Shown: positions 10,615-14,562 of the stretch, piece by piece
Layout: each line of letters begins with the position of its first letter
Position numbering within the stretch: the first letter of the stretch is position 1
Assembly: GCF_900199635.1 (NCBI RefSeq)
Contig: NZ_LT962687.1
Coordinates: forward strand, 1,349,501 to 1,413,500
Length of the DNA stretch: 64,000 nucleotides
Direction: 5' to 3'
Source: Anaerotruncus massiliensis (ex Togo et al. 2026)
Lineage (GTDB): Bacteria > Bacillota > Clostridia > Oscillospirales > Ruminococcaceae
Position numbers and translations under genes: made by a program
Notes under the pieces: model-generated
What the model was told of the DNA's origin: nothing
Databases searched by the model: none
What the model saw: only the letters and a program-made list of their open reading frames with translations

Positions 10615-10644
10615 ACCCGTAGCAAGGATAGAGGGGGAAACGCG

Positions 10645-11145
10645 ATGGTGCGTCCTGCAAAACCGGACGAGCTCGGCAGGATTCTGGAGATTTACGCGGC
10701 GGCCCGACGGTATATGGCGGAAAACGGCAACCCGGCGCAGTGGGGGAGCTCCTATCCGCGTCGGGAGCTGCTCGAGGAAGACCTCAGGCGCGGGCAGCTT
10801 TACGTCGTCACGGAGGGCGATAAGATCCACGGCGCGTTCGTGCTGGCGCTGGGGGAGGAGACGACCTATGCGGAGATGGAAAACGGGGCGTGGGAGCATG
10901 ACGGGCCCTACGGCACGATCCACCGGGTCGCCGGCGACGGCACGGGAAAGGGCGTCTTCGCCCAGTGCGTGGCGTATTGCCGGGGGCGGATGGAGTGCCT
11001 GCGGATCGACACCCATGAAAGGAACGGCACGATGCGGCATCTGATCGAAAAGCACGGCTTCGCGCGGCGCGGCGTCATCCATGTGGAGGACGGCAGCCCG
11101 CGGATCGCGTATGAATTTGACGGGGCTTCGGGAGAAAACGGGTAA
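10645..11145 (+). CDS. GNAT-family N-acetyltransferase
   Basis: Predicted acetyl-CoA-dependent acetyltransferase of 166 residues. The N-terminal RPAKPDELGRILEIYAAAR, a central TIHRVAGDGTGKGVFAQ (acetyl-CoA-binding loop, with the Q/R-x-x-G-x-G/A motif in the variant form found in clostridial GNATs) and IDTHERNGTMRHLIEKHGF are the usual landmarks. The start is supported by AGGGGGAAA eight bases upstream. It is apparently monocistronic. The acceptor substrate cannot be told. Confidence 0.87.
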   Translation: MVRPAKPDELGRILEIYAAARRYMAENGNPAQWGSSYPRRELLEEDLRRGQLYVVTEGDKIHGAFVLALGEETTYAEMENGAWEHDGPYGTIHRVAGDGTGKGVFAQCVAYCRGRMECLRIDTHERNGTMRHLIEKHGFARRGVIHVEDGSPRIAYEFDGASGENG

Positions 11146-11155
11146 ATTTGGCGTG

Positions 11156-11184
11156 TTGACTTTTGGGGCAGCGTGGGGTAGAAT
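11156..11184 (+). promoter_or_regulatory. Promoter of the radical-SAM DNA-repair operon
   Basis: TTGACT (11156-11161), 17-bp spacer, TAGAAT (11179-11184); transcription start expected near 11191, inside the LexA box. Confidence 0.8.
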
Positions 11185-11191
11185 AGGAAGA

Positions 11192-11203
11192 GAACGTATG
11201 TTC
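11192..11203. promoter_or_regulatory. LexA (SOS) box
   Basis: GAACGTATGTTC is a perfect GAAC-N4-GTTC palindrome, the core of the Gram-positive LexA operator. It lies directly downstream of the -10 element, where bound LexA would block initiation. Confidence 0.8.
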
Positions 11204-11220
11204 TATGGAGGATCACCCAC

Positions 11221-12531
11221 ATGGACCTGATGGAAAAACTGGAAATTCTTTCAGACGCCGCCAAGTACGACGCGGCCTGCACCTCGTCGGGCGTCGACCG
11301 CAAGGGGGAGAAGGGCGGCATCGGAAGCTGCGTAAAGGCGGGCATCTGCCACAGCTTCGCCTCCGACGGCCGGTGTATCTCACTTTTAAAGGTGCTGATG
11401 ACCAACTCCTGCGTCTACGACTGCAAATACTGCGTCAACCGCCGCTCGAACGACGTGCGCCGCACGGCGTTCACTCCGCGCGAGCTGGCCGAACTGACGA
11501 TCCAGTTCTACCGCCGCAACTATATCGAGGGGCTCTTCCTCTCGTCGGGCATCCTCAAAAACCCCGATTACACCTGCGAGCGGATGATCCAGGCGCTGGA
11601 GATCCTGCGGGGCGAATACCGCTTCGGCGGCTACATCCACGCCAAGGCGATCCCCGGTGCGGACGACCGGCTGATCGCGCGGCTCGGGCTGCTGGCCGAC
11701 CGTATGAGCGTCAACATCGAGCTGCCGAGCCAGCAGAGCCTGGGGCGGCTCGCGCCCGACAAGTCGAAGGCCGACATTCTGCGCCCGATGGGGCTCATCC
11801 AGACGGGCATCGCGGAGAACTCCTCCGACCTCGTGCGCTACCGCCACGCGCCCAAATTCGCGCCCGCGGGCCAGAGCACCCAGATGATTATCGGCGCGAC
11901 GCCCGACAGCGACCTCCAGATCCTGCGGCTGACCCAGGGGCTCTACAGGAAATACGGGCTCAAGCGGGTGTTTTTTTCAGCGTACATGCCGGTGCAGGAG
12001 GACGCGCTGCTGCCCTCCCTCGACACCCGGCCGCCGCTTTTGCGGGAGCACCGGCTTTACCAGGCGGACTGGCTGCTGCGCTTCTACGGCTTCGACGCCT
12101 CCGAGCTGCTCGACGAGGGGCACCAGAGCTTCAACCCGCTCGTCGACCCCAAGTGCAACTGGGCGATCAACCACATGGACCAGTTCCCCGTCGAGGTGAA
12201 CCGCGCCCCCTATGAGATGCTGCTGCGGGTGCCGGGCGTCGGCGTCAAGAGCGCCCAGCGGATCGTGGCCGCGCGGCGGACAAGCACGCTCACCTTCGAA
12301 GGGCTCAAGCGCATCGGCGTGGTGCTGAAAAGGGCGCAATATTTCCTGCTCTGCTCGGGGAAGATGGCGGAGGGTCTCGTCGTCACCCCCGACGCGGTGC
12401 TGCGCGCGCTCATCTCCGAGCGGGACTACGAGCGGGCGCGGCTGCCGGAGGAGGCGCCCGAGCAGCTTTCGCTCTTTGACCGCAATCCAAACAGGGAGGA
12501 CGTGGTGCAGTGCCTGACCGGACAGATCTAG
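11221..12531 (+). CDS. Putative DNA modification/repair radical SAM protein (TIGR03916 type)
   Basis: 436 residues. The radical-SAM [4Fe-4S] motif CVYDCKYC (Cys64, Cys68, Cys71, a CX3CX2C spacing) follows a cysteine-containing N-terminal region (SCVKAGICHSFASDGRC). After the barrel comes a helix-hairpin-helix-like segment, LLRVPGVGVKSAQRIVAARR, typical of DNA-binding repair proteins, around residues 335-355. This architecture is that of the TIGR03916 family, which is always paired with a TIGR03915 protein; here that partner overlaps it by 22 bases. The reaction is uncharacterised as far as I know. A LexA box in the promoter supports a role in DNA damage. Confidence 0.92.
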   Translation: MDLMEKLEILSDAAKYDAACTSSGVDRKGEKGGIGSCVKAGICHSFASDGRCISLLKVLMTNSCVYDCKYCVNRRSNDVRRTAFTPRELAELTIQFYRRNYIEGLFLSSGILKNPDYTCERMIQALEILRGEYRFGGYIHAKAIPGADDRLIARLGLLADRMSVNIELPSQQSLGRLAPDKSKADILRPMGLIQTGIAENSSDLVRYRHAPKFAPAGQSTQMIIGATPDSDLQILRLTQGLYRKYGLKRVFFSAYMPVQEDALLPSLDTRPPLLREHRLYQADWLLRFYGFDASELLDEGHQSFNPLVDPKCNWAINHMDQFPVEVNRAPYEMLLRVPGVGVKSAQRIVAARRTSTLTFEGLKRIGVVLKRAQYFLLCSGKMAEGLVVTPDAVLRALISERDYERARLPEEAPEQLSLFDRNPNREDVVQCLTGQI

Positions 12532-13322
12532 TCTACCTCTGTGAGGAGAGCCTGGAAGGGACGCTCTGCTGCGTCTACGAGAGCTACACCCGCCGGGAGG
12601 TCCCTTTCGACATCCTGCCGGAGGGCACGCCCACCCTCTACCCGTCGCGCCCGGTCGTCTCCGACGAGGCCCACGCGGCGCGGGTGTGGCGTTCTCTTCT
12701 GAAGCTCGACCCGGAGGCCGCCGCCTGGGTGCGCGACGGCTGGTGCTCCTGCCTGGAGGGCCGGGAATACCGCGCCTACCGGTTTATCCGCGCCCTCTAC
12801 GCCCACGGCCCGCGTATCATGGGCAATCTCGCGGACCCCGACGTGGGGGAGTTTTTCAAGCTCGTTCGGTTCCAGCGCAATGAGGCGCACCTTATGAAGG
12901 AGTTTTTGCGGTTCGCCGACTACGGGGGCGCGCTCGTCTCGGTCATCGAGCCGAAGGCGCTCATCCTCGAGAGTCTCGTGCCCCACTTCACCGGCCGCTT
13001 CCCCGAGGAGCAGTTCATGATCTTCGACAAGACGCACGGATTCGCCCTCTTCTACCGCCCCTACGAGTGGGTGGTGCGCCCGGTGAGCGAGCTGGCGCTG
13101 CCCGTCGCGGACGCACAGGAGCGGAACTTCCGCGCCCTCTGGCGGCGGTATTACGACCGCATCGGCATCGAGGGGCGCTACAACCCCAAGTGCCGGATGA
13201 CCCACATGTACAAGCGGTTCTGGAAGAACATGCTCGAGATGGACCGCGAGACGGGCGTCCTGCGCGCCGACGAGCGCGCCCCGCTGGACGGCCCGTCCGG
13301 ACCACCGCTGCGGCTTGAATAG
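12510..13322 (+). CDS. TIGR03915-family putative DNA repair protein (DUF4130)
   Basis: 270 residues, the usual partner of the radical-SAM protein just upstream. It opens with LVYLCEESLEGTLCCVYESY and ends with NPKCRMTHMYKRFWKNMLEM, both close to the family pattern (an opening YxxxxEGxLxxVxxAY and a closing NP.LQ....P.RYWK). The DUF4130 domain, which is described as uracil-DNA-glycosylase-like, occupies the C-terminal part. Start is GTG at 12510, nine bases after AGGAGGA inside the preceding gene. The two are co-regulated from the SOS-type promoter. The chemical role is unknown. Confidence 0.9.
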   Translation: MPDRTDLVYLCEESLEGTLCCVYESYTRREVPFDILPEGTPTLYPSRPVVSDEAHAARVWRSLLKLDPEAAAWVRDGWCSCLEGREYRAYRFIRALYAHGPRIMGNLADPDVGEFFKLVRFQRNEAHLMKEFLRFADYGGALVSVIEPKALILESLVPHFTGRFPEEQFMIFDKTHGFALFYRPYEWVVRPVSELALPVADAQERNFRALWRRYYDRIGIEGRYNPKCRMTHMYKRFWKNMLEMDRETGVLRADERAPLDGPSGPPLRLE

Positions 13323-13330
13323 GTGATGGA

Positions 13331-13362
13331 AGAGGCCCCGCCGGGTTCCCGGCGGGGCCTCT
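13331..13362. terminator. Hairpin between convergent units
   Basis: 15-bp stem (13331-13345 with 13348-13362) between the repair operon and the leftward PstS-like gene; T-tracts on both sides are weak. Confidence 0.65.
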
Positions 13363-13365
13363 TCT

Positions 13366-14562
13366 CTATGGGTTGATTCCGGCATAGCCGGTCCGTTCAA
13401 TCAGCTCCTGCCCCTCGGGGGAGAGGATCCATTCGAGCAGCGCGTCGATCTGCTCGGTGCTCTGGGTGGTGGCGGCGTAGAATTCGCTCGTCAGCGGGTA
13501 GCGGCCCGCCCGGATGTTCTCCACCGTGGGCGCGACGCCGTCCACCGCGAGCAGCTTGATGCCCTTGTTGCCGACCAGCTGGTCGGCATAGTAGCGGAAG
13601 GAGAAGCCGATCGCGTTCTTGTGGTTGCGGTAGTCGGAGGTCCGCTCGATGATCCCGGACATGAGGTCCTCGACCTGCTCGGTGGGCGGCGTCATCAGGG
13701 GCGCGTCCCCCATGAAGCGGACCAGCGCGCTCTGGCTTCCGCTGCCCTGGTTGCGCTGGAAAGCGAGGATCGGCTCGTCGCGTCCGCCGACCTCCTTCCA
13801 GTTGGTGATCCCGCCGGAATAGATGCCCCTGATCTCCTCCGAGGTGAGGCTTTCGACGGGGTTATTACGGTTGACGAAAAAGACGAACCCCTCCCGGCCG
13901 ATCGGCGTGAAGCGCAGTTCCCGGCCTTCCGCGCGGGCCTCCCCGATCTGTTCCTCCGACGGGTACGCGCCGAACATCACGTCCACCTCGCCTTTGGCGA
14001 GCAGAGCGTAGCCGCCGATCGTGTTGTGGAACTGGAAGGGGCCGTCCGCCGAGCCGAGCGGGAGAATGTCGGACGGATAGACCGCGCCCACAAAGGCGGA
14101 ATAGACCGGGAACAGGGCGGTCGCGCCGTCCACCACCGGGAGCGGCTCGCCGAGCCGCAGGCTTGCCGGGCCATCCAGCCGCGCGACCTTGGAATCCTGC
14201 GCGAAGGGCAGGTAATCGGCCGTGTCGAAGGGCGCGCCGTCTTCGACCGTCAGGTAGCGGTCGTAGGCGTTGTGTGCGAATTGGACGCCCAGGCAGACGG
14301 CGGAAAGCAGGACGACCCCTGCGAAGACGATCCCCACATTCCTCCGGGCCCTGCCCGGACGCAGCAGAATCAGCAGGATGCAGAATACGGCTGCGGCGAT
14401 CGGCAGCAGGGCGAAGAGGACGGAATAACCGGTGGCCAGGGTCAGCAGGAAAAGATAGAGCGCGGCGATCGGGGCCGCGAACACGAGCAGCAGGATGGCC
14501 GCCGTCTGCAAGACGGCGGATGGTTTTCGACCGGAATCGTTCACAGGAGGGCCCCCATTCAC
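13366..14562 (-). CDS. Membrane-anchored PstS-like substrate-binding protein
   Basis: Periplasmic-binding-protein fold of the phosphate-binding (PBP-like, PstS) type, about 398 residues. Instead of a lipoprotein signal it begins with three hydrophobic segments (about residues 17-40, 43-62 and 72-92), so the binding domain is tethered by a small membrane domain. Landmarks are FHNTIGGYALLAKGEVDVMFG, LTSEEIRGIYSGGITNWKEVGG and RNQGSGSQSALVRF, the last two close to PstS phosphate-site sequences. No pstCAB genes are near. Start uncertain: GTG at 14562 or 14544, both with weak binding sites; an ATG at 14649 is less likely. It may act as a sensor rather than a transporter part. Confidence 0.82.
   Translation of the reverse strand: MNGGPPVNDSGRKPSAVLQTAAILLLVFAAPIAALYLFLLTLATGYSVLFALLPIAAAVFCILLILLRPGRARRNVGIVFAGVVLLSAVCLGVQFAHNAYDRYLTVEDGAPFDTADYLPFAQDSKVARLDGPASLRLGEPLPVVDGATALFPVYSAFVGAVYPSDILPLGSADGPFQFHNTIGGYALLAKGEVDVMFGAYPSEEQIGEARAEGRELRFTPIGREGFVFFVNRNNPVESLTSEEIRGIYSGGITNWKEVGGRDEPILAFQRNQGSGSQSALVRFMGDAPLMTPPTEQVEDLMSGIIERTSDYRNHKNAIGFSFRYYADQLVGNKGIKLLAVDGVAPTVENIRAGRYPLTSEFYAATTQSTEQIDALLEWILSPEGQELIERTGYAGINP

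Follow-up and report, generated by a model that had tools for sequence, protein, structure and literature searches.

A conserved, very likely SOS-controlled radical-SAM/DUF4130 operon in Anaerotruncus massiliensis, and a proposed S24-type LexA substitute encoded ahead of the pair in relatives

When is the radical S-adenosylmethionine (radical-SAM) protein encoded by a two-gene operon of Anaerotruncus massiliensis made, and on what might it act together with its DUF4130 partner? The operon occupies positions 11,156 to 13,322 of the window, by which we mean the whole 64,000-nt stretch analysed (NCBI RefSeq assembly GCF_900199635.1, contig NZ_LT962687.1, positions 1,349,501 to 1,413,500 of the forward strand). 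A first-pass annotation had tied it to the LexA regulon by a perfect GAAC-N4-GTTC palindrome at 11192-11203, lying after a -10 element at 11179-11184; both elements are found in the sequence at these coordinates, and the operon consists, as had been claimed, of a radical-SAM gene and a partner gene, with matches over cut-off to TIGR03916 and TIGR03915 and overlapping open reading frames (ORFs). The promoter sequence and its comparison with those of relatives make SOS control of the operon highly probable. The fuller explanation, a LexA-controlled two-gene SOS operon whose products perform radical chemistry on damaged DNA, we consider likely overall. The features of the locus are as follows.

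11156..11161, + strand: -35 hexamer TTGACT (promoter scan); TTGAC is invariant across six aligned promoters
11179..11184, + strand: -10 hexamer TAGAAT after a 17-nt spacer (promoter scan); three letters are invariant across the six
11192..11203, + strand: putative LexA box GAACGTATGTTC (sequence match), a box of the same type being present at 56 of 76 orthologues
11207..11211, + strand: ribosome binding site GGAGG, read from the sequence
11221..12531, + strand: radical-SAM protein, 436 aa, TIGR03916 (676.8 bits against a cut-off of 343.5; predicted structure pLDDT 89.7)
11410..11433, + strand: CxxxCxxC cluster motif, C64/C68/C71, invariant in all 54 rows (49 from the main group, five from a paralogue group)
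12187..12279, + strand: helix-hairpin-helix (HhH)-like segment, residues 323-353
12510..13322, + strand: TIGR03915/DUF4130 partner, 270 aa, GTG start (198.9 bits against a cut-off of 112.25; PF13566, 146.5 against 27; predicted structure pLDDT 90.1)
13343..13360, + strand: terminator-like stem-loop 3' of the operon, weak, with five such sites in the region against 2.0 expected

The tie to the LexA regulon is supported: the box is conserved at orthologues, and lexA, recA and dinB of the same genome share its type. TIGR03916 is matched over cut-off in 79 of 297 genomes of the order that were searched, and 82 loci were read, comprising 76 full-length orthologues (the window's own included) and six members of a paralogue group; two contig-end fragments (G081, G048) and a locus that groups with the paralogues (G025) lie outside the 76. 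A box of the pattern RAACN4GTTY stands within 200 bp of the start in 56 of the 76 orthologues (55 of 75 when the window's own copy is left out), whereas 200 dinucleotide shuffles average 1.3 and never exceed 5, and control windows of 200 bp within the gene hold one in 2.9% of cases. Genera with at least one boxed orthologue number 38 of 49. The inner bases are non-random: among 72 sites, 70 have a purine (A or G) at position 5 and 62 a pyrimidine (T or C) at position 8; as judged by a crude pattern, some boxes follow a -10-like hexamer and some lie inside the spacer. In the six aligned promoters AGAAC...GTT is invariant together with the -35 and -10 letters listed above, and the flanks vary. 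Boxes within 250 bp were also found at 50 of 80 named loci, where shuffles gave a mean of 1.8 and at most 6; these loci are the best 80 among 591 relatives, share some members with the first set, and take in Paenibacillus auburnensis, Desulfosporosinus acididurans, Lachnospiraceae and Coriobacteriales. Among relatives, 19 of 23 lexA genes have such a box no more than 250 bp away, a figure that carries no shuffle control, or 19 of 24 if the boxless second lexA-like gene of G041 (L234) is counted.

The A. massiliensis genome encodes one LexA (58.6 bits against a cut-off of 23.7; 193 aa, with LexA_DNA_bind and Peptidase_S24 domains), so that the repressor presupposed by the first-pass annotation is present. 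Its gene has the box GAACATACGTTT about 60 nt 5' of the ATG, recA has GAACAAATGTTC about 0.1 kb 5' of its likely ATG, and a Y-family polymerase gene (dinB-like, with IMS domains) has, just 5' of its likely ATG, a box identical to the operon's. We take GAACGTATGTTC as a LexA box because LexA is encoded, the lexA and recA boxes are nearly identical to it and the dinB box is the same. The tighter form RAACNTAYGTTY occurs at five sites in the 3.15-Mb genome, the control having one site on one strand and none on the other; lexA, dinB and the radical-SAM operon account for three of these sites, and the other two stand ahead of genes for a PfkB-type protein (L018) and a collagen-repeat protein (L019). 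Among the 36 perfect palindromes of the wider GAACN4GTTC form the surroundings of nine others were read (L008, L012, L013, L016, L240-L244): two are the sites of dinB (L013) and recA (L240), and none of the remaining seven was assigned to the regulon, several of them lying within or across reading frames.

Two further observations concern boxes elsewhere in this genome. A LexA-like box, GAACGTATGTTT, lies at L019:1501-1512 (G000:C7:812438-812449), ahead of the collagen triple-helix repeat gene, and may be there by chance or mark an SOS-linked surface or phage protein. Four matches to GAACRNWYGTTT are found at L236-L239.

Within 10640-13420 the promoter scan gives a single candidate, TTGACT-17-TAGAAT (shuffle mean 0.3), and GAACGTATGTTC begins 7 nt past its -10. 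With the start site placed from the -10, the box would span roughly +2 to +13 of the transcript, a position at which a bound repressor would block initiation. The GTG start of the DUF4130 gene overlaps the radical-SAM stop by 22 nt, and the identical overlap recurs in other orthologues. From this arrangement we infer LexA binding, induction and translational coupling: a LexA dimer on the box, over the start region of a sigma-A-type promoter, would hold the operon off; DNA damage would lead through RecA filaments to LexA self-cleavage and one mRNA for both proteins; and DUF4130 would then be made by translational coupling. The radical-SAM protein would bind DNA via its HhH-like segment and, with DUF4130, direct a 5'-deoxyadenosyl radical at a damaged nucleotide. 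Upstream, a 166-aa ORF on the same strand, a likely gene, ends at 11145, before the promoter, and has no NCBIfam match.

How the pair is wired where no box is present can be followed in the 20 boxless orthologues, of which four stand behind dinB, five behind a gene for an XRE-S24 protein and 11 behind neither. A co-directional dinB precedes the pair in L106 (across a 0.3-kb gap), L107, L109 and L110; its head is boxed in three of the four, that of L110 lying outside the stretch taken. The XRE-S24 gene is ahead of the pair in L104, L105, L108, L111 and L112, with another gene between them in L111 and a 0.3-kb gap in L112. In six of the 11 others a site with one mismatch lies within 110 bp; shuffles average 1.9 such cases and reach six or more in three of 300. 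The box of L070 is at -275; that of L088 (G121), at -687, heads a co-directional ORF that stops 48 nt before the pair (L115); L084 has only 87 bp of upstream sequence; and in G007 and G058 no box, one-mismatch site, dinB or S24 gene was found upstream. Among the boxless named loci, L149 has a co-directional ORF with a box upstream of it at -691. These short box-headed genes running into the pair in L115 and L149 indicate that further SOS operon layouts exist.

The S24 arrangement was followed in 12 genomes, five of the order and seven reached via named loci; one record, L155 (Gemmiger sp. An194), has the same site coordinates as G243, and the two were counted as one. The records are named Faecalibacterium, Gemmiger and Ruthenibacterium, to which the spirochaete Brucepastera is added. 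No recognisable LexA was found in the 12: eight give no match at all, and the other four give weak ones (at most 24.8 bits, two just over the cut-off of 23.7) that appear from their translations to be proteins without the LexA-like peptidase part. The five genomes of the order are 99-100% complete; outside them the absence is weaker evidence, because metagenome assemblies and drafts make up most of the rest. In the order, where 30 genomes were searched, a LexA match is found in 23 of the 25 other genomes, the exceptions being G170 and G007. In all 12 S24 proteins the Ala-Gly site is kept, as are the Ser and Lys residues matching those of LexA in the alignment. A palindrome, ACAACN5GTTGT, lies 5' of the S24 gene in eight of the 12 genomes and in the recA promoter of six (G243, G177, G272, G225, G282 and G314), which are the only six whose recA promoters were read.

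ACAAC-N5-GTTGT at the heads of S24 genes: L246, L248, L253, L294, L295, L297, L300
ACAAC-N5-GTTGT at recA promoters: L245, L247, L251, L252, L256, L299

The counts of this palindrome are not clearly raised (12 against 9 for the control, and 21 against 14, one genome being in both), and it is the location of the sites rather than their number that carries the argument; part of the agreement is shared promoter descent within one family, but in Brucepastera, a spirochaete, there is likewise an S24 gene with the palindrome ahead of the pair. It seems rather more probable than otherwise that in these genomes the XRE-S24 repressor replaces LexA, binding ACAAC-N5-GTTGT to repress itself, the pair and recA, and being inactivated by RecA-stimulated self-cleavage, and a similar degree of belief attaches to the radical-SAM pair lying in the repressor's own operon. 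Jointly with this replacement, we lean towards regarding the pair as a core SOS effector that follows whichever damage sensor a lineage uses. A narrow search of the open-licence literature found no report that describes such a replacement of LexA for Faecalibacterium or Gemmiger.

What the pair might do has to be approached through its two proteins. The radical-SAM protein belongs to TIGR03916 (rSAM_link_UDG), which we take to be COG4277. Outside the CxxxCxxC motif, C20, C43, H44 and C52 are each present in 49 of 49 main-group rows and C312 in 43 of 49, and these residues may form a second metal site; in the five paralogue rows C20 is kept once and C43 never. The HhH-like segment, which the first-pass annotation had also pointed out, is found at residues 323-353, with a Pfam HHH_3 match (E 3e-5, 24.5 bits) just below the curated cut-off of 27 and a PDB profile match to the ComEA-related 2duy (E 4e-5). 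The predicted structure has a radical-SAM core, and its Foldseek list is headed by HydE and includes BioB, LIAS and viperin. With query TM-scores of 0.31-0.40, these matches reflect the common core and name no reaction. In PHROGs the one match was weak and of a generic radical-SAM kind (E 0.0065). The PADLOC models of anti-phage defence matched neither protein, and a defence system was rejected on that account.

DUF4130 lies downstream of the radical-SAM gene in 74 of the 76 orthologues and 78 of the 80 named loci, so that the annotation's "obligate partner" is right as to a nearly constant pairing but too strong a term, the partner being missing in two of the 76. On the Agrobacterium vitis plasmid pAvCG78a (L287) the TIGR03915 domain (10-251) is fused to a TIGR03914 UdgX domain (253-487). 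UdgX is described as a uracil-DNA glycosylase (UDG) that bonds covalently to the AP (abasic) site it makes (PMC10359453). The operon itself has no UdgX domain, its partner matching TIGR03915 only, nor was a UdgX found over cut-off in the genome when partial proteins were scanned (121.9 against 189.95); the two PF03167 genes of the genome sit away from the operon and fit UDG family 4 and a deoxyinosine glycosylase. A DNA lesion is favoured as the substrate because of the UdgX fusion, SOS control and the HhH-like segment, and the DNA-repair role named in the first-pass annotation would draw on the same points; with the enzyme family added to them, we put a radical reaction on a DNA lesion at about an even chance. 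The pair was also seen beside glycyl-tRNA synthetase genes in a record named Acinetobacter phage MD-2021a (L289, CAKLQH020000003.1), which may be bacterial DNA or a large phage.

Several observations weigh against a LexA-controlled operon acting on damaged DNA. The bare palindrome occurs at chance frequency, with one GAACN4GTTC site in the window against 1.02 expected and 36 genome-wide, where the reversed pattern used as control has 32, and alone it therefore proves nothing: the first-pass annotation read a real pattern correctly but on a weak basis. Eleven of the 76 orthologues lack all three of an exact box within 200 bp, an upstream dinB and an upstream S24 gene; of the 30 boxless named loci, 21 lack both S24 and dinB upstream; and G170 is boxed yet has no LexA match. 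The box is also not specific to the pair, since two of the six loci of the paralogue group (L097-L102, 35.6-41.4% identity) have it and none of the six has DUF4130. The DUF4130 fold has no convincing structural match, Foldseek against PDB giving none at E <=0.001 (best 8a8k, E 7e-3, TM 0.38), and we know of no DNA substrate for the pair. Those chance-level counts are also what would be expected if the operon were constitutive and its palindrome fortuitous, a reading that we regard as exceedingly improbable, given the excess of boxed orthologues over shuffles, half-sites that stay invariant while their flanks vary, and the identical or near-identical boxes at dinB, lexA and recA.

Other explanations differ on the chemistry. 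With the operon in the SOS regulon, the radical-SAM protein might modify DUF4130 or supply a small-molecule cofactor, leaving DUF4130 alone to act on DNA; the near-constant pairing would suit this, as would the cofactor enzymes HydE, BioB and lipoyl synthase in the Foldseek list and the possibility that C20, C43 and C52 hold a second cluster, but those structural matches go no further than the shared core and the HhH-like segment lies in the radical-SAM protein itself, and we think this unlikely. Direct reversal of UV lesions in the manner of spore photoproduct lyase (SPL) is less likely again. It would fit a radical-SAM family under SOS control, and DUF4130 is described as associated with SplB-like radical-SAM photolyases (PMC3765255); yet TIGR03916 is the sole NCBIfam match at E 0.001 or better, no SPL-named entry is among the 50 Foldseek matches listed or the 13 PDB sequence matches, and SplB (COG1533) and COG4277 have been listed as separate SOS genes (PMC8565304). 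Membership of the SPL family, unsupported by these comparisons, was rejected. A nuclease system, with DUF4130 as a diverged phosphoesterase of the DHH type (RecJ/NrnA-like), is suggested by the DHH proteins in its top Foldseek ranks (8a8k, and a phage exopolyphosphatase at E 9e-4), but query TM-scores do not exceed 0.38 among the matches listed, and hhalign gave probabilities of 0.2% against seven short DHH proteins (NrnA-type) and 0.1% against 29 long ones (RecJ-type and other); the structural hint is thus unsupported by profile comparison, and we hold this reading to be very unlikely. Radical chemistry on damaged DNA under LexA control remains the explanation that we prefer.

The LexA link of the pair is not new, since it has been predicted for CAC3343-CAC3344 of Clostridium acetobutylicum and, in a glycosylase-linked form, in other phyla. 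CAC3343-CAC3344 was predicted in 2013 to be a LexA operon from footprinting and expression data (PMC3828012), and is like the window's pair in its proposed LexA control but differs in that the accessible text concerns one species, with no wider survey or alternative wiring; to judge from their name only, we infer that these genes are TIGR03916/TIGR03915 members. COG1573-COG4277 has been placed in the SOS network of Bacteroidetes, and UDG-based repair is cited as SOS-controlled in Verrucomicrobia and Alphaproteobacteria (PMC8565304). That too is an SOS-controlled pair, equated here with UDG/UdgX plus TIGR03916, but it contains a uracil-DNA-glycosylase part, whereas the DUF4130 of the window is free, and the LexA motifs differ. 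The Agrobacterium vitis plasmid has the same order of radical-SAM gene and TIGR03915 domain, and differs in the UdgX domain fused after the latter. A radical-SAM gene is under LexA both in the Gram-positive core SOS regulon (PMC7739468) and in Streptomyces, as vnz_31145 (PMC9380542), as is proposed for the gene of the window; the family is unstated in what could be seen of either source and may be SplB or TIGR03916.

For the S24 type, HdiR of Lactococcus and FddR of Francisella are described as S24-type LexA substitutes (PMC13148647). The repressor proposed here resembles them, by architecture only, as a helix-turn-helix plus Peptidase_S24 protein in the place of LexA, and differs in being encoded ahead of the radical-SAM pair. 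In the literature searched, the breadth across clostridia, the three wirings and the S24 substitute were not found described, and the S24 wiring is the freshest part of these results.

The operon of A. massiliensis is thus very likely a conserved SOS-controlled operon of a known kind. The pair occurs in many bacteria, and its SOS control is steady across a large anaerobic clade, which tells when its reaction should be sought, namely after DNA damage, and which partners should be included. The S24-wired relatives that lack LexA would offer a clean test for a substitute SOS regulator in common gut bacteria.

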